Positions 21,283-27,644 of a DNA stretch of 33,186 nucleotides are shown piece by piece (positions within the stretch are counted from its first letter, which is position 1; each line of letters begins with the position of its first letter). The notes under the pieces were generated by a model. It searched no databases, was not told the origin of the DNA, and saw only the letters and a list, made by a program, of their open reading frames with translations. Source of the stretch: an uncultured Bacilli bacterium (lineage in GTDB: Bacteria; Bacillota_I; Bacilli_A; RF39; UBA660); contig CANRCI010000003.1 of NCBI GenBank assembly GCA_947629075.1, positions 1 to 33,186 of the forward strand, read 5' to 3'. The translations under genes and the position numbers were made by a program.

Positions 21283-21309
21283 AACAAAAAAAGAAGCCAG
21301 ATAGCTTCT
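21283..21309 (-). terminator. terminator of the sigF-spoVA operon
   Basis: AGAAGC / GCTTCT stem with a 6-base loop and seven T on the minus strand, beginning at the spoVAE stop codon. Confidence 0.85.
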
Positions 21310-21658
21310 AATTTTTTGGTCTAAATATAAGTGTAAAGATAAATGTAAAGAGAATAGCTGCCGTTATTCCACTTGCTGTTAGGTCGAACATTCCCATCAT
21401 GAGACCGATAAAACCGAACTCGTTAGCTTTAGCTAACGCCCCATGAATTAGGGAATGACCAAAACTTGTAATCGGTACTAAAGCTCCACCACCTACATAA
21501 GCGATAATGGTATCATACCAACTAAAGCAATCGAGAAAAGCTCCTAAAACGACAAACATACTAGTAATATGACCAGGAGTTAATTTGGTATTATCTAAAA
21601 TTATTTGACCCAACAGACATAGTGCACCGCTGAATAAAAATGAATATAGATATATCAC
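21308..21658 (-). CDS. spoVAE: stage V sporulation protein AE
   Basis: 116 residues, the usual SpoVAE length, hydrophobic throughout with about four membrane segments. SpoVAE is part of the SpoVA channel in the inner forespore membrane that moves Ca-dipicolinate into the spore and out at germination. The motif SLIHGALAKANEFGFIGLMMGMF and the early GQIILDNTKLTPGHITSMFVVLG are characteristic. It starts with GTG, overlapping the spoVAD stop by one base (TAGTG), with GGAGGTGG upstream. It is last of the spoVAC-AD-AE set. Confidence 0.95.
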   Translation of the reverse strand: MIYLYSFLFSGALCLLGQIILDNTKLTPGHITSMFVVLGAFLDCFSWYDTIIAYVGGGALVPITSFGHSLIHGALAKANEFGFIGLMMGMFDLTASGITAAILFTFIFTLIFRPKN

Positions 21659-22650
21659 TATACCACCTCCAAACTAATCGCATGGGCAATTGAGTTTATC
21701 GGTTCGTGTTGGTAGACAAAAGTTGGGGAAAATAGTGCTCCGGTTGCTACAATCAATACTCTTTTTAACTGATGTCTTTCCATCAGAGGAAATATGTGTG
21801 AATAATTTACTAAAGCAGTACAAGCTGGACCACTTCCACCAGCCATTACTTCTTCTTGCATTTCTAAATCGTAAAGCATTGTACCAGTATCATCATAATT
21901 ATTACTGATATCTATTTTGTATTCACTGTGCAAGTAATCGATAAGTATTTCTTTACCATATCTTCCTAAATCACCAGTTAAAATCAAATCGTAATAAGAA
22001 GCATCTCTCTTTTTATCTTTTAAGTGTTGATAAATTGTATCTCCTGCTGCTACTGCCATAACAGCTCCCATATTAAAGGGATCAGTTTGATTCATATCCA
22101 TAACTTTACCAATTGTTGACGATTCAACTTTAATTTTACTTTTAGTCGAAGTTAGATAACAACTCGCCCCACCCGTTGCGGTAAAAGTAGCTGTCTTAGG
22201 TTTAGGAGCTCCATATTCAGTAGGATTTCTAAACTGTTTTTCACTAGACATGTTGTGAGAAGAAACTGACACGATACTATTTTTTATCTTACCACTATCT
22301 ATTAGAGATGATGCTAAAATCAATCCCTCAACACTAGTTGCACAAGCTGCATATATTCCTAGAAAAGGAAATTCATACTTTAATGCTGCATAACTAGATG
22401 AAGTAATCTGATTTAGAAGATCACCTGCTATAAACATATCAATGTTTTTCTTATCTTTATTGATTTTGTTTAATAAGATATCAATACTATCCTGCATAAG
22501 TTTAACTTCCGCTTTTTCCCAAGTCTTTTCACCATTATATAAATCTGTATAATAACGATCAAACTTACTACCTAGTGGTCCATCTTTTTCATATGGTCCT
22601 ACGACAGTTGAATAATTATTTATATACACATTATTATAATTAAAAGTCAT
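21658..22650 (-). CDS. spoVAD: stage V sporulation protein AD
   Basis: 330 residues, a thiolase-fold protein and the soluble, dipicolinate-binding member of the SpoVA complex. Recognisable stretches are GDLLNQITSSSYAA, FLGIYAACATSVEGLILAS, HNMSSEKQFRNPTEYG, LILTGDLGRYGKEIL and GGSGPACTALVNYSH. Length is close to the usual ~338. The ATG overlaps the spoVAC stop (TAATG) with GGAGGGG upstream. Its strong conservation argues that this locus is functional and not decaying. Confidence 0.97.
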   Translation of the reverse strand: MTFNYNNVYINNYSTVVGPYEKDGPLGSKFDRYYTDLYNGEKTWEKAEVKLMQDSIDILLNKINKDKKNIDMFIAGDLLNQITSSSYAALKYEFPFLGIYAACATSVEGLILASSLIDSGKIKNSIVSVSSHNMSSEKQFRNPTEYGAPKPKTATFTATGGASCYLTSTKSKIKVESSTIGKVMDMNQTDPFNMGAVMAVAAGDTIYQHLKDKKRDASYYDLILTGDLGRYGKEILIDYLHSEYKIDISNNYDDTGTMLYDLEMQEEVMAGGSGPACTALVNYSHIFPLMERHQLKRVLIVATGALFSPTFVYQHEPINSIAHAISLEVV

Positions 22651-23093
22651 TATACCCCTCCTAATAACAAGTATCTAATCATCCCGAAGAACCATGCCGA
22701 AACTACACCATAGAGGATAACTGATCCAGCTAATTTAAATATATTACTTCCAATACCATATATTGGTCCTTCTTTTCTATATTCCATACCACTACTCATC
22801 ATCGAATGAGCGAATCCCGTAATAGGAATAATGAATCCACATTTACCGAATGATACCCATTTATCAAAGAAACCTAAAGCTGTAAACAGGCACGATACAA
22901 ATATTAGAGTTACACTCATAAAGACAGTTGCGTCTTTAGTTGATATATCGAATATATAAGTGTAAAACTCAATTAGGAGTTGTCCTAAAACGCCAATCAT
23001 TCCACCGATCACAAATGCTATAAAAGCATTTTTTAATCTGGGTTCTGTAGGTTTATGGCGATCAACAATTTTTTGATATTCTCTTTTTTCCAT
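22650..23093 (-). CDS. spoVAC: stage V sporulation protein AC
   Basis: 147 residues with four membrane segments, the mechanosensitive-like pore member of the SpoVA channel. The N-terminal cytoplasmic stretch (YQKIVDRHKPTEPRLKNAFIAFVIGG) and the conserved KCGFIIPITGFAHSMMSSGMEYRKEGPIYGIGSNIFKLAGSVILYG are diagnostic. GGTGATAAT precedes the ATG. It lies 44 bases downstream of the sigF-like gene, with a possible forespore-type promoter in the gap. spoVAA and spoVAB are absent, as in Clostridium-type spoVA operons. Confidence 0.97.
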   Translation of the reverse strand: MEKREYQKIVDRHKPTEPRLKNAFIAFVIGGMIGVLGQLLIEFYTYIFDISTKDATVFMSVTLIFVSCLFTALGFFDKWVSFGKCGFIIPITGFAHSMMSSGMEYRKEGPIYGIGSNIFKLAGSVILYGVVSAWFFGMIRYLLLGGV

Positions 23094-23137: not shown

Positions 23138-23797
23138 CTACGATAATAATTTATTTTTTATTTTGTTTTTTATTTTAGTTTCCCGTCTCGATACTTGAAC
23201 TTGATTGATATTTAATTTTTTACTGACTTCACTCTGACTTAAATCATCGTAATAGCGATATTTGATCAAATCTTGTTCTTCTTGTGGTAATGAATCAATT
23301 GCATCTTTTAACATTATTACTTCTTCGTCAAATCCTTTTTCTTCATATTTAATCGAGTCGTATAAATTCATCGTCTTATTTTCATCATCACTCAATTCGT
23401 AATCGAGACTTTTAACATAATCACTAGCTTTAATGGCATCATCAACTTCTTCAATACTTTTACCTAGAGCAAGAGCAATTTCCTCATTAGTTGGTTCACT
23501 CAAAAATTCCTGTTGCAGTTTCTCTTTCATCCTGCGAATATCTCTTCCCAGTTTCAAAGTATCTTTCCCAATCTTTAAAAGTCGGTTTTCCCGAACGTAT
23601 TTTAAGGCTTCACCCATTATGTACAATCTAGCAAAAGTAGAAAACTTGGTATTATATTCTTCTTTATAATTTTCTTTAGCTTTTAAAAGAGCCATGAGCC
23701 CTACTTGTACTAAATCTTCATAATCATTATTGTATGCATATTTATAGACAATACTTGATACATATTTTCGATAACTCTCTATTTCTTCGTTAGTCAT
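23138..23797 (-). CDS. sigF: sporulation sigma factor, SigF type
   Basis: 219 residues of the sigma-70 group 3 (SigB/F/G) family. Region 2 is clear (YEDLVQVGLMALLKAKENY...FSTFARLYIMGEALKYVREN), then region 3 (EFLSEPTNEEIALALGKSIEEV). Region 4 reads LPQEEQDLIKYRYYDDLSQSEVSKKLNINQVQVSR. The QSEV...QVQVSR form is closer to B. subtilis SigF than SigG as I remember them, and the position before spoVA is that of sigF. It is shorter than the usual ~250 because the N-terminus is short. It is preceded by a half-length SpoIIAA-like gene with no spoIIAB in between. TAGGAGGG ribosome site. Confidence 0.88.
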   Translation of the reverse strand: MTNEEIESYRKYVSSIVYKYAYNNDYEDLVQVGLMALLKAKENYKEEYNTKFSTFARLYIMGEALKYVRENRLLKIGKDTLKLGRDIRRMKEKLQQEFLSEPTNEEIALALGKSIEEVDDAIKASDYVKSLDYELSDDENKTMNLYDSIKYEEKGFDEEVIMLKDAIDSLPQEEQDLIKYRYYDDLSQSEVSKKLNINQVQVSRRETKIKNKIKNKLLS

Positions 23798-23805
23798 TTT
23801 CCCTC

Positions 23806-24000
23806 CTATATCAAATAGCTAAAATAATTACTATCTAATCCACTACAACAATTTCTATCGATAAATATTACATTGATACCACCAATTCTTACTACTTCTG
23901 TTAACGACTTTCTAATCTCTAAAAGATTATTCTTATTTACTCTTCCCTCTATCCTTAAAAACATTACCCCTTTCTTATACTCATATTCTAAATTTATCAT
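23806..24000 (-). CDS. truncated SpoIIAA-like STAS domain protein
   Basis: A 64-residue ORF (67 in the track from a GTG at 24009; I prefer the ATG at 24000). Its sequence INLEYEYKKGVMFLRIEGRV...VIFIDRN...GLDSNYFSYLI aligns with the N-terminal half of SpoIIAA, through the phosphorylation-site region, then stops. In SpoIIAA the motif is FMDSSGLGVI; here the Asp-Ser pair is kept in GLDSNYF but the second Ser and the Gly are not. The last helices of the STAS fold are missing. The stop codon overlaps the sigF ribosome site. It may be a remnant left when a deletion removed the C-terminal half of spoIIAA and all of spoIIAB, or a shortened functional leader gene. Confidence 0.65.
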   Translation of the reverse strand: MINLEYEYKKGVMFLRIEGRVNKNNLLEIRKSLTEVVRIGGINVIFIDRNCCSGLDSNYFSYLI

Positions 24001-24047: not shown

Positions 24048-24083
24048 TTTCGACAAAAGAAATTAATTTTTTCTTTCGACAAA
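24048..24083 (-). promoter_or_regulatory. pair of Spo0A boxes upstream of the sigF locus
   Basis: TTTGTCGAAA occurs twice on the minus strand (24074-24083 and 24048-24057), start to start 26 bases apart. Each contains the Spo0A box core TGTCGAA. They lie about 50-80 bases before the SpoIIAA-like gene, where Spo0A~P activates spoIIA in B. subtilis. A -10-like TATATT lies downstream (about 24018-24023); I see no clear SigH consensus. Confidence 0.75.
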
Positions 24084-24124: not shown

Positions 24125-24155
24125 AAAAAAAAGAAATAAATTATTTTTTATTTCT
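24125..24155 (-). terminator. terminator of the polytopic membrane protein gene
   Basis: AGAAATAAA / TTTATTTCT hairpin with eight T on the minus strand, overlapping the last codons and stop at 24141. Confidence 0.82.
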
Positions 24156-26408
24156 CTTTTTATTATTTCGTTTTTTACCGTTAGTTTTTTTCTTACCCGT
24201 CTTCTTTTTCTCAATTGTAAGTTCGCGGTAACTAGCAAAGATAATTAAGAATAGTCCTATTACTAATAAGAAAATAGATATTGGGGTTTTTTCTAACCAA
24301 TTATATATATTATATAGAATGTTAACTATTACTAAAGCAATACCTAGTAGGAATAGTTTGTCGTATTTTTTGTTTACAAAACCGAAGAAAGCTACTCCAA
24401 TCGATAGAACAATGGCATAAATAGATAAGTAAAGACTTTGATCAAACATGACAATTAATACGGAAATTAGTGAGCCTGCTACAGCAATATATTGACGATA
24501 GTCTTTGTTCTTGACAAATTTATTAATGACAAATGTTAGATATAAAACTAAAACGGAAAGGAAAAAAGTATTCCATATTTCTGAGTTATAAGCATCGATT
24601 AATGAATAGATAGGTATGGCGATTGCAACTAAAGTTATGTTTTTCTTAGTCTTATCGTCATCGTGATAAAAGACTGATATCATATATAACAATAGAGCAA
24701 TGACATTAGCAACGATATAATTATCATTAGTACTCTCAATGAAGTGTTGATCGATAGCATAACTTCCTAAATAAATCGTAAACAGTAAAATAGCAAAAGC
24801 CACATTAGTAAGTTTAGGATCATCTTTTTTATATATTCCTACTACGTAATAATAACCGATAATAGTTAATATAACTAATAGAATTGCATAAATATTTCCA
24901 AAAGTCGCTACTTTTATGACTGATATCAAAGCTAGAACCAAACTTATATATTTATACATATTGATAAGTTTTTTATTTTTAAATACGCCATAAAGAATAA
25001 CGCTGATTAAGAATAAGATACCGATTAACAATTCATAAAGATCAAATGCAAAATAATTATTGAAGAATAGTAAGAATCCTAAAACGAACATAAATACTTT
25101 AACAGGATGGATATAAGCTTCAAAAGCATACTCATCTAAAGATTCAAAACTCATACATGCCAGACACATAAACATCGATACTACTGAGATAATAATTGGT
25201 AACCAAGTAGGATTGTGTAGTGATAATATAAAAGCAAATAAAGTTAGTATGTCAGCTGTTATAAGTGATGACGTTATCAGTAATTTTCGCTTGTACAATA
25301 GTGCTACTAGATATACGAAAACAGCATAAACCGTTATTCCTAAAGCCCAAAGTTCAATCGAAAAGTTTAACGTTAAAAACAATGGTATGACAAACAAGAA
25401 AGACGCTAGTGGTGCAAAATAATTTAAATCACTATCTTCATTCTTTTTAACCCAACTGTATATCTCATAAACGAATAAAATGGTAAGTATTAATACAGAT
25501 AAATAGTTGTCAAAAAAGAATTGAAAAGTAACAAAACATAACATTGAAATAAGAGTTATTATCTTAGAGAAAGCATAGAGAATTTTACTTCTAAACTTCT
25601 CACTGTAATAAGTAAATTTACCAAGTAAAATAAACAATGGTGCAATGGTAAACAACGTATCTTCAACACTCAAAGCTAAAAAGCGATCCATTTGGAAAAT
25701 AGCAAGTAGTAATAATGTGTACAATATGTATAAAATGTTATCTTTTTCAAAATTGCAATAAGATATGAATGTTAAAAAAGCTGCTAAAAGATAGAAAGAA
25801 ACGTAATAAAAACTGCGACCAGCTCCTAAAAGAGAAAACCAATTGCCAAATATTCCGGCATATCCAGCTGATAGAAAAGCAAACAAGATAAAGATCATTC
25901 CTAATGTCCAAGATACATAAGCACTAGATTTAATTCCTACTCTATTTTTACTAAATCGATATATCGCAAACAGAATAATACTACCTAAAATAAAAATAAA
26001 TATTCGCGATAAATAGTTAACTCTAGCCCAAGACGATGTAGCAAATAAAAACCCAGCTACACTTATTAAAACAATTCCTAATTTTAAGAACATGTCCAAC
26101 TTCTTTATTTCAGGATCTACTTGTTCTTTTTTTACTTTCTTTTTCTTTTTTTCAATATCCGATACAGCCCAAACAGTTAAAATTGATCCCACAATATTAA
26201 AGAGCAACAATACAATAGCAACGCCATACAAAACATTTTCTTTTTTTATCAAAGTCGCATAATTTTCAGAACTAAAATATAATAAAAAGATTGAAACTCC
26301 CGATAAAACAATAGATGGAATAGATACTAAACCAAACAACCCGACTGAAATGAACAAAGCTAAGATGTTACTAATCAAAACAACATCTAGCTTGGACTTT
26401 ACGCTCAC
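24141..26408 (-). CDS. large polytopic membrane protein with Lys-rich C-terminus
   Basis: About 755 residues, not recognised. I place the start at the GTG at 26408 (MSVKSKLDV), since AGAGGTGAG lies six bases upstream; the track's first GTG is inside that ribosome site. It is nearly all hydrophobic, with some 20 or more membrane segments arranged in pairs. One Lys-rich cytoplasmic loop (~90-105, DIEKKKKKVKKEQ) breaks the pattern. The C-terminus is a very basic tail of ~20 residues (KKTGKKKTNGKKRNNKK), certainly cytoplasmic. It resembles, in layout only, the DUF2157/DUF2339-like uncharacterised many-TM proteins. It lies between the sporulation locus and dacF as a single-gene unit. Confidence 0.75.
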   Translation of the reverse strand: MSVKSKLDVVLISNILALFISVGLFGLVSIPSIVLSGVSIFLLYFSSENYATLIKKENVLYGVAIVLLLFNIVGSILTVWAVSDIEKKKKKVKKEQVDPEIKKLDMFLKLGIVLISVAGFLFATSSWARVNYLSRIFIFILGSIILFAIYRFSKNRVGIKSSAYVSWTLGMIFILFAFLSAGYAGIFGNWFSLLGAGRSFYYVSFYLLAAFLTFISYCNFEKDNILYILYTLLLLAIFQMDRFLALSVEDTLFTIAPLFILLGKFTYYSEKFRSKILYAFSKIITLISMLCFVTFQFFFDNYLSVLILTILFVYEIYSWVKKNEDSDLNYFAPLASFLFVIPLFLTLNFSIELWALGITVYAVFVYLVALLYKRKLLITSSLITADILTLFAFILSLHNPTWLPIIISVVSMFMCLACMSFESLDEYAFEAYIHPVKVFMFVLGFLLFFNNYFAFDLYELLIGILFLISVILYGVFKNKKLINMYKYISLVLALISVIKVATFGNIYAILLVILTIIGYYYVVGIYKKDDPKLTNVAFAILLFTIYLGSYAIDQHFIESTNDNYIVANVIALLLYMISVFYHDDDKTKKNITLVAIAIPIYSLIDAYNSEIWNTFFLSVLVLYLTFVINKFVKNKDYRQYIAVAGSLISVLIVMFDQSLYLSIYAIVLSIGVAFFGFVNKKYDKLFLLGIALVIVNILYNIYNWLEKTPISIFLLVIGLFLIIFASYRELTIEKKKTGKKKTNGKKRNNKKRNKK

Positions 26409-26447
26409 TATACTCACCTCTATTATAATTTTAACATAAATGAGACA

Positions 26448-26489
26448 AATAAAAAAGATACTAAATTAAAATGGATATAAAGTATCTTT
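26448..26489 (-). terminator. terminator of the DacF-type gene
   Basis: AAAGATACT / AGTATCTTT stem with an 18-base loop and TTTTATTT on the minus strand. The stop codon lies within the loop. Confidence 0.7.
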
Positions 26490-27608
26490 TAACACTCTTA
26501 AAAACAGATTAAAAATATTTATTTTATTTACATCTTCTCTGGTGACAATGTTTATTTCATCCACTACTTCGTCATTTAATTTAATATACATTTTACCGAC
26601 AACATCACCTTTTTTTAATGGCAATTTGACTTCATTAATTTTTTTGTCCAAATCGTATTTTAAACTTTGTTCACTTATTTTTTTTAAAATGGTCGCATCT
26701 TTTTCAAGATAGAGATTGGTCTTTCTGGTATCACCTTTTTCGAATTGAATGGTATCGATTACTTCATCTTTCGATTTTAATAGATCAATTTGGTAATTAT
26801 TAAAACCATAATCTAAAAGAGCCATTGTCTCATTGTTTCGTACCTTTCCTTCTTTTTCTCCTAAAACAATGGCGATCAACCTAGTATCATTTCTTTTAGC
26901 AGTTACAGCCATACAATAACCAGCAGCGTCGGTAAATCCTGTCTTTAAGCCATCAGCTCCAGCATAAAATCTTATCAACTTATTGGTATTGACTAGCCAA
27001 AATTTGTTATTGGAATCTACTCTTAAGTAATCTTCATAAATAGAAGTATATTTTAGAACCGTTTCATGTTTTAACAATTCTCTAGCAATTACTGCCATAT
27101 CATAAGCAGTCGAATAATGTCCTTCTTCATCAAGACCAGTTGCATTTTTAAATACCGTATCTTTAAGTCCCAAATCCTTTACTTTTTTATTCATCATTTC
27201 GACGAACTTCTCTTCAGTTCCAGCAATTCTTTCAGCCATTGCTACTGTTGCATCATTGGCACTAGCCATAACAATACCTTTAAAAAGTTCTTCAACCGTC
27301 ATAACTTCACCAGTCTCTAAGTATATTTGACTACCACCCATACCAGATGCATTTTTAGACGCCGTTACTTTATCGCTCCAAGACAATTCACCAGCTTCGA
27401 TATATTCCAGAATTATTATTTGACCAACCATCTTAGTCATCGAAGCCACTGCCAATTTTTCATTGCGATTTTTTTCGTAAATTATTTTACCAGTTGACGC
27501 CTCCATAAGAAGAGAACTTTTAGCATTAGGAGTTGGATCTTCACTAGCGTAAACCCTTGGAATTAAAAGAAATAACGCCATCATTGCAATCAAAAACTTC
27601 TTTTTCAT
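26466..27608 (-). CDS. dacF: D-alanyl-D-alanine carboxypeptidase, S11 family (DacF type)
   Basis: 380 residues starting at the ATG at 27608 (MKKKFLIAMM), chosen for the GAGAGGTGA site upstream; the track's start at 27638 would run through it. A signal peptide ends near VYASE. The penicillin-binding motifs are all present: SMTK (56-59), SAN (116-118) and KTG (222-224). The C-terminal ~100 residues form the PBP5-like beta domain and end in a hydrophobic or amphipathic membrane anchor (INIFNLFLRVLKDTLYPF). It trims the terminal D-Ala from peptidoglycan stem peptides. In spore formers a DacF enzyme acts in spore cortex synthesis; the vegetative DacA role cannot be excluded. It diverges from a VanY-type gene. 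Confidence 0.9.
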   Translation of the reverse strand: MKKKFLIAMMALFLLIPRVYASEDPTPNAKSSLLMEASTGKIIYEKNRNEKLAVASMTKMVGQIIILEYIEAGELSWSDKVTASKNASGMGGSQIYLETGEVMTVEELFKGIVMASANDATVAMAERIAGTEEKFVEMMNKKVKDLGLKDTVFKNATGLDEEGHYSTAYDMAVIARELLKHETVLKYTSIYEDYLRVDSNNKFWLVNTNKLIRFYAGADGLKTGFTDAAGYCMAVTAKRNDTRLIAIVLGEKEGKVRNNETMALLDYGFNNYQIDLLKSKDEVIDTIQFEKGDTRKTNLYLEKDATILKKISEQSLKYDLDKKINEVKLPLKKGDVVGKMYIKLNDEVVDEINIVTREDVNKINIFNLFLRVLKDTLYPF

Positions 27609-27644
27609 CAATTCACCTCTCATTAATAAATATGTCAAAATATG

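Follow-up and report, generated by a model that had tools for sequence, protein, structure and literature searches.

Apparent lineage-wide loss of the SpoIIAB–SpoIIE partner switch in a family of Bacilli that keeps SigF, and a half SpoIIAA-like gene beside sigF

The sigF locus of an uncultured Bacilli bacterium, contained in a stretch of 33,186 nucleotides (contig CANRCI010000003.1 of assembly GCA_947629075.1; hereafter the window), carries only half of a SpoIIAA-like STAS gene and no gene for SpoIIAB, and genome comparisons indicate a lineage-wide loss of the SpoIIAB–SpoIIE partner switch rather than a gap in one genome. SpoIIAB and SpoIIE, which hold SigF off and release it in all spore formers studied, are textbook essentials of endospore formation, and how SigF comes to be activated solely in the small cell ranks among the central questions of bacterial development. 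With more than 100 genera that possess Spo0A, SigF, and SpoVA while lacking both SpoIIAB and SpoIIE, the family amounts to a deletion experiment made by nature, and the window genome within this family additionally keeps SigE, SigG, and SigK. Members of the family either make spores in another way or have stopped making them.

All genes of the locus lie on the minus strand. The sigF (spoIIAC) orthologue (23138–23797) is intact with 219 amino acids and is followed downstream by spoVAC (22650–23093, 147 aa; TIGR02838, E = 2.8e-47), spoVAD (21658–22650, 330 aa; TIGR02845, E = 4.2e-123), and spoVAE (21308–21658, 116 aa; TIGR02839, E = 1.4e-40). Upstream lies a gene for a dacF-like D-Ala-D-Ala carboxypeptidase (26466–27638), whose family was assigned by eye from the ORF sequence; dacF is also found upstream of spoIIAA in B. 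subtilis. Between dacF and the STAS gene, a multi-pass membrane protein of 758 aa without a Pfam family is encoded (24141–26417), which has relatives of about 30% identity at the same place in the loci L046 and L180. SigF regions 2, 3, and 4 all scored over the Pfam cut-off, and the protein is full length for its family. Its best NCBIfam models were SigBFG and spore_sigF, and its nearest solved chain is the SigF of the SpoIIAB–SigF complex 1L0O. The sequence is divergent and stays below the NCBIfam SigF equivalog cut-off (146 versus 321.45 bits), and we regard it as the SigF orthologue because of the spoIIA/spoVAC-AD-AE synteny and because the genome has a separate SigG gene. Two perfect Spo0A boxes (TTGTCGAA) are present on the minus strand, a proximal one at 24049–24056 and a distal one at 24075–24082, about 49–82 bases upstream of the STAS start. 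A first-pass annotation, made from the letters of the window alone, had described sigF and spoVAC-AD-AE as apparently intact and the boxes as strong, in agreement with these matches. Among 111 related loci, 100 carry TGTCGAA ahead of the operon; the total of 120 boxes compares with an expectation of about 2.5 in shuffled sequence, and an equal-length stretch of sigF itself contains no box. A simple tblastn search recognized SpoVAC downstream of sigF in 70 of 110 loci, a minimum figure because the sequences are divergent and the flanks short. In the order of dacF, STAS gene, sigF, and spoVAC-AD-AE, in the upstream Spo0A boxes, and in the domains of SigF, the locus thus resembles the spoIIAA-spoIIAB-sigF operon that B. 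subtilis shares with other spore formers. It differs from that operon by the half length of the STAS gene and by the lack of SpoIIAB, in cis and in the genome, and of SpoIIE; in most of the family, moreover, the serine that is phosphorylated in SpoIIAA is absent from the STAS protein.

The half STAS gene (23806–24000, minus strand) encodes 64 aa, with the ATG at 24000 and the TAG stop at 23808–23806. The conserved N-terminal part (EYKKGVMFLRIEG) is present through beta-3 and the remainder is absent. Only 8 bases separate the ORF from sigF, and its stop overlaps the Shine-Dalgarno sequence of sigF (ATAGGAGGGAAAATG). General profiles recognized the ORF weakly, with Pfam STAS matching residues 5–57 at E = 0.0028, under the curated cut-off, and TIGR02886 (SpoIIAA) matching over profile positions 1–56 at E = 0.035. 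Profiles from the family matched strongly, at E = 9.6e-16 for a same-locus profile built from relatives and at E = 1.2e-19 for a second profile that included the window's own sequence. In a family sample, Pfam STAS matched 17 of 17 and TIGR02886 16 of 17 proteins at E ≤ 0.01. The STAS domain of SpoIIAA is thus present in the window half, but other hallmarks are missing: the domain of about 110 aa is reduced to 64 aa, compared with mostly 101–123 aa in the full-length STAS proteins of the family, and the D-S-[ST]-G motif with the phosphorylatable serine reads D-S-N-Y, with the serine present and the glycine absent. The coordinates and matches bear out the initial reading of an N-terminal SpoIIAA-like half that stops inside the sigF ribosome site, 8 bases from sigF.

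SpoIIAB was absent in cis, as had been noted from the locus itself, and a search of the window genome (1.18 Mb, 92.6% complete) with TIGR01925 returned histidine kinases only; neither the SpoIIAB that would hold SigF inactive and act on SpoIIAA nor the cognate phosphatase SpoIIE was found there. The same model exceeded its cut-off in none of the 145 genera of the family, and at 1e-14 it found SpoIIAB in 0 of 193 genomes of the order (0 of 181 when only good-quality genomes are counted). As a positive control, 72 of 395 members of the class scored over the cut-off, none of them from the window's family. Candidates for a SpoIIAB elsewhere were rejected: among the matches listed for TIGR01925 and the broader PF13581, almost all frames had histidine-kinase length or more, and the three short family matches that were read out (in G028, G116, and G014) proved to be frame-broken histidine kinases. 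We had to consider that SpoIIAB lies elsewhere in the genome or that SigF control has been rewired or lost, and only the second of these suggestions from the first-pass annotation finds support, as searches of the family and order recovered neither SpoIIAB nor SpoIIE. The window genome yielded no intact spoIIAA-spoIIAB pair at another site, and among relatives from the family or order a normal locus of spoIIAA, spoIIAB, and sigF was not encountered. Comparison of the locus among relatives showed that the absence of the kinase is general, whereas a half SpoIIAA gene beside sigF was observed in the window genome only.

A STAS gene beside a SigB/F/G-type sigma factor is also reminiscent of RsbV/RsbW/SigB-type partner switches, but the window operon has no RsbW-type kinase. 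In the family, the sole strong matches to the RsbW-type HATPase_c_2 domain (PF13581) came from one fused protein of 625–632 aa in 2 of 145 genomes (L183 in G121:C12, and G098:C2), which combines a SpoIIE-type phosphatase part with an RsbW-type HATPase part. In G121, the fused gene is followed by a separate, different STAS gene of 99 aa with an S-S-A-G motif. These fused proteins are apparently self-contained partner switches that are unlinked to sigF.

SpoIIE was missing to the same extent. The best match in the family reached 37 bits, which is the level of PP2C-like proteins, and no genome reached 38 bits; most SpoIIE-like matches were PP2C-like frames of about 250 aa with 16–23 bits and were rejected as SpoIIE. 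In the class, 74 of 346 genomes contained SpoIIE at 1e-14, again none from the window's family. As 63 of the 65 SpoIIAB-bearing class genomes in the range common to both searches also had SpoIIE, and as both are absent from the family, the two proteins appear to have been lost from the lineage together, or one soon after the other. Other components of the program are present: Spo0A is over its cut-off in the window genome (282 bits) and in 118 of the 145 family genera, and the window genome also encodes SigH, SigE, with SpoIIGA adjoining sigE, SigK, and a SigG that is cut by a contig end.

For spore-forming bacilli and clostridia, a compilation of sporulation genes records spoIIAA, spoIIAB, sigF, and spoIIE without exception (Galperin et al., 2012, PMC3533761, Table 3). 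A 2024 survey found spoIIAB and spoIIE reduced or absent in RF39 and predicted sporulation with a different regulation (PMC10868615). As our family most likely belongs to RF39, which it fits in that its order contains one family very rich in genera and with small genomes, the shortage of these two genes was already known. A term search of the main text of that survey gave no mention of spoIIAA or sigF, and the sigF locus and its STAS remnant, with the missing serine and the recurrent losses, are apparently not described in that text. A machine-learning tool found spoIIAB in all its predicted spore formers and scored RF39 genomes at 0% (PMC12536801); the family calls for caution here, since missing spoIIAB need not predict non-sporulation.

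The account that we consider likely is that the ancestor of the family (order most likely RF39) lost SpoIIAB, the kinase that acts as anti-sigma factor, as well as the phosphatase SpoIIE, that the STAS remnant partly decayed, and that SigF is now set mainly by Spo0A~P-dependent transcription. What was left would be an operon of dacF, a variable gene, STAS, sigF, and spoVAC-AD-AE, in which the STAS protein, the former SpoIIAA, would lack its kinase and phosphatase partners and, in most of the family, its phosphorylated serine. For the window lineage we infer from the sequence an in-frame internal deletion that took the C-terminal half of STAS and spared the stop overlapping the sigF ribosome site. 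Translation into sigF would probably still be coupled via this overlap, and the short STAS may be kept at most for this coupling. Provided that the organism sporulates at all, the timing and strength with which Spo0A~P switches on the operon would, without an anti-sigma lock, most likely set SigF activity, and SigF output is thus probably determined by Spo0A transcription. We recognized nothing in the family that would keep SigF inactive in the mother cell. In B. subtilis without SpoIIAB, SigF is active too early and sporulation is blocked, and control by transcription alone would therefore be unusual. The family may have an undetected, unrelated anti-sigma factor, and the sequences would be compatible with another principle of cell identity, with such an anti-sigma factor, or with a decaying program. 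We only tentatively suggest that a large lineage with spore genes runs SigF, the first forespore sigma factor, entirely without the SpoIIAB–SpoIIE lock, its post-translational control being either absent or exerted directly on SigF by a STAS protein that is not phosphorylated. If a lock-free SigF were true, compartment-specific expression would be set up unlike in every studied spore former.

That an unrelated anti-sigma factor has replaced SpoIIAB in an otherwise conventional sporulation would agree with the retention of the rest of the sigma cascade, which presumably needs SigF activity in the forespore only. We regard such a replacement as unlikely, since Fin (PF10955), a conceivable substitute anti-sigma F factor, was detected at noise level only and a conserved extra gene was not found in the sigF operon, although these absences speak weakly against it.

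Equally unlikely, in our estimate, is that the whole window locus is on its way out and sporulation is being lost, with sigF and spoVA yet to decay. The window STAS is already truncated, and a related locus with the same flanking genes (L180, G057:C8:26400-30600) has lost sigF and spoVAC-AD-AE, retains a 79-aa STAS remnant, and shows only weak Spo0A matches, so that it apparently represents a later stage of loss. The window genome, however, still encodes SigF, SpoVAC-AD-AE, Spo0A, SigE, SigK, and SpoIIGA in uninterrupted frames that match their families well, and the branch length of the window SigF (0.76) is near the median (0.62).

The fate of SpoIIAA in the rest of the family was followed in 111 sigF loci. 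In 98 of them sigF is immediately preceded by a STAS gene, and in one more the STAS gene lies 1.5 kb upstream (99/111), which means that it is kept in about 89% of the loci and deleted in about one genus in nine. In one locus (L189, G001:C28), a metK-like gene has been inserted between the STAS gene and sigF, and adjacency of these two is therefore not obligatory. In an alignment to B. subtilis SpoIIAA, only 8 of 98 family STAS proteins, including that of the window, have S or T at the position of the phosphorylated Ser58, whereas S stands there in all 19 SpoIIAA proteins from SpoIIAB-bearing class members; Asp57 is found in 81 and Gly60 in 74 of the 98. At the N-terminus, the motif E-[FY]-R-K-G-I-L-F-V-R-L is strongly conserved, with G invariant and E, G, F, and R near-invariant, which argues that STAS is under selection for something in most genera. 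As it is still kept there, STAS probably retains part of its function or has acquired another, and this conservation in about nine-tenths of the loci is a point against our preferred account, because STAS can hardly be mere family-wide debris. Conversely, 12 loci have sigF without STAS, which needs 11 changes on the SigF tree, and 11 of these 12 retain a Spo0A box just upstream of sigF. Complete loss of STAS thus appears to have happened about 11 times with sigF and its Spo0A boxes left in place, and the boxes testify for sigF and not for STAS. The first-pass annotation took the retained Asp-Ser and the strong Spo0A boxes as evidence against simple decay of the locus, a view that does not hold up for STAS in this comparison: the boxes persist where STAS is gone, and the window Asp-Ser carries little weight, as the following SpoIIAA glycine is absent and the serine is missing from 90 of the 98 family proteins.

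The conservation of STAS beside sigF, with a motif of its own that differs from SpoIIAB-bearing relatives, could also mean that STAS was repurposed as a phosphorylation-independent regulator that binds SigF or another partner directly, the window half being a working minimal form; independent STAS-like genes of about 80 aa elsewhere in some family genomes would agree with this, as short forms can evidently persist. The approximately 11 independent complete losses with sigF kept, including two loci near the window on the SigF tree (L012 and L033), make such a repurposing quite improbable, and no STAS protein of this group is known to bind a sigma factor directly. Descriptions of a serine-less retained STAS, of its repeated loss, or of the half gene were not found in open papers; the family-wide pattern of a STAS gene beside sigF that has mostly lost its serine, its roughly 11 losses, and the half gene thus appear not to have been described.

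Decay of STAS is the simplest reading of the window half gene, as an in-frame deletion would have kept the original overlap of stop and ribosome site. The same overlap is found identically in locus L046, which encodes a SigF of 51% identity and a 101-aa STAS. The last bases of the window STAS resemble the L046 STAS gene to the same degree at its internal D-S site and at its C-terminal end (a score of 14 in each alignment, with P about 0.03); this statistically weak similarity, from one relative with 33% STAS identity, is the expected residue of a deletion between short repeats. We therefore consider the half gene compatible with the in-frame loss of an internal segment bounded by two short stretches of similar sequence. 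A frameshift error was rejected as the cause, as the DNA from the stop to sigF contains no C-terminal coding sequence. The SigF tree places the window in a group with G008 and G054, which have no STAS, and with G126 and G060, which have a full STAS, with mixed support for its exact sister (100/46); two of its nearest relatives thus lack the gene. A collapsed deletion in the metagenome assembly or a binning artefact, conceivable for a genome in 100 contigs that is 92.6% complete and the only one of its genus in the comparison, is very improbable given the preserved reading frame and native stop/ribosome-site overlap and the lack of any C-terminal coding remnant such as a frameshift error would produce, and it would leave the family-wide absence of the kinase untouched.

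A second short STAS-like gene of about 75–85 aa, ending after about profile position 75, was observed repeatedly in the family, in loci L169–L178 and L182 (for example L175:2021-2272) and was not found in the window genome. It matched the family STAS profile at about 1e-10 to 1e-16, and the one example tried had no Pfam STAS match. This gene adjoins murT-gatD and lies upstream of yqfC-yqfD in several loci.
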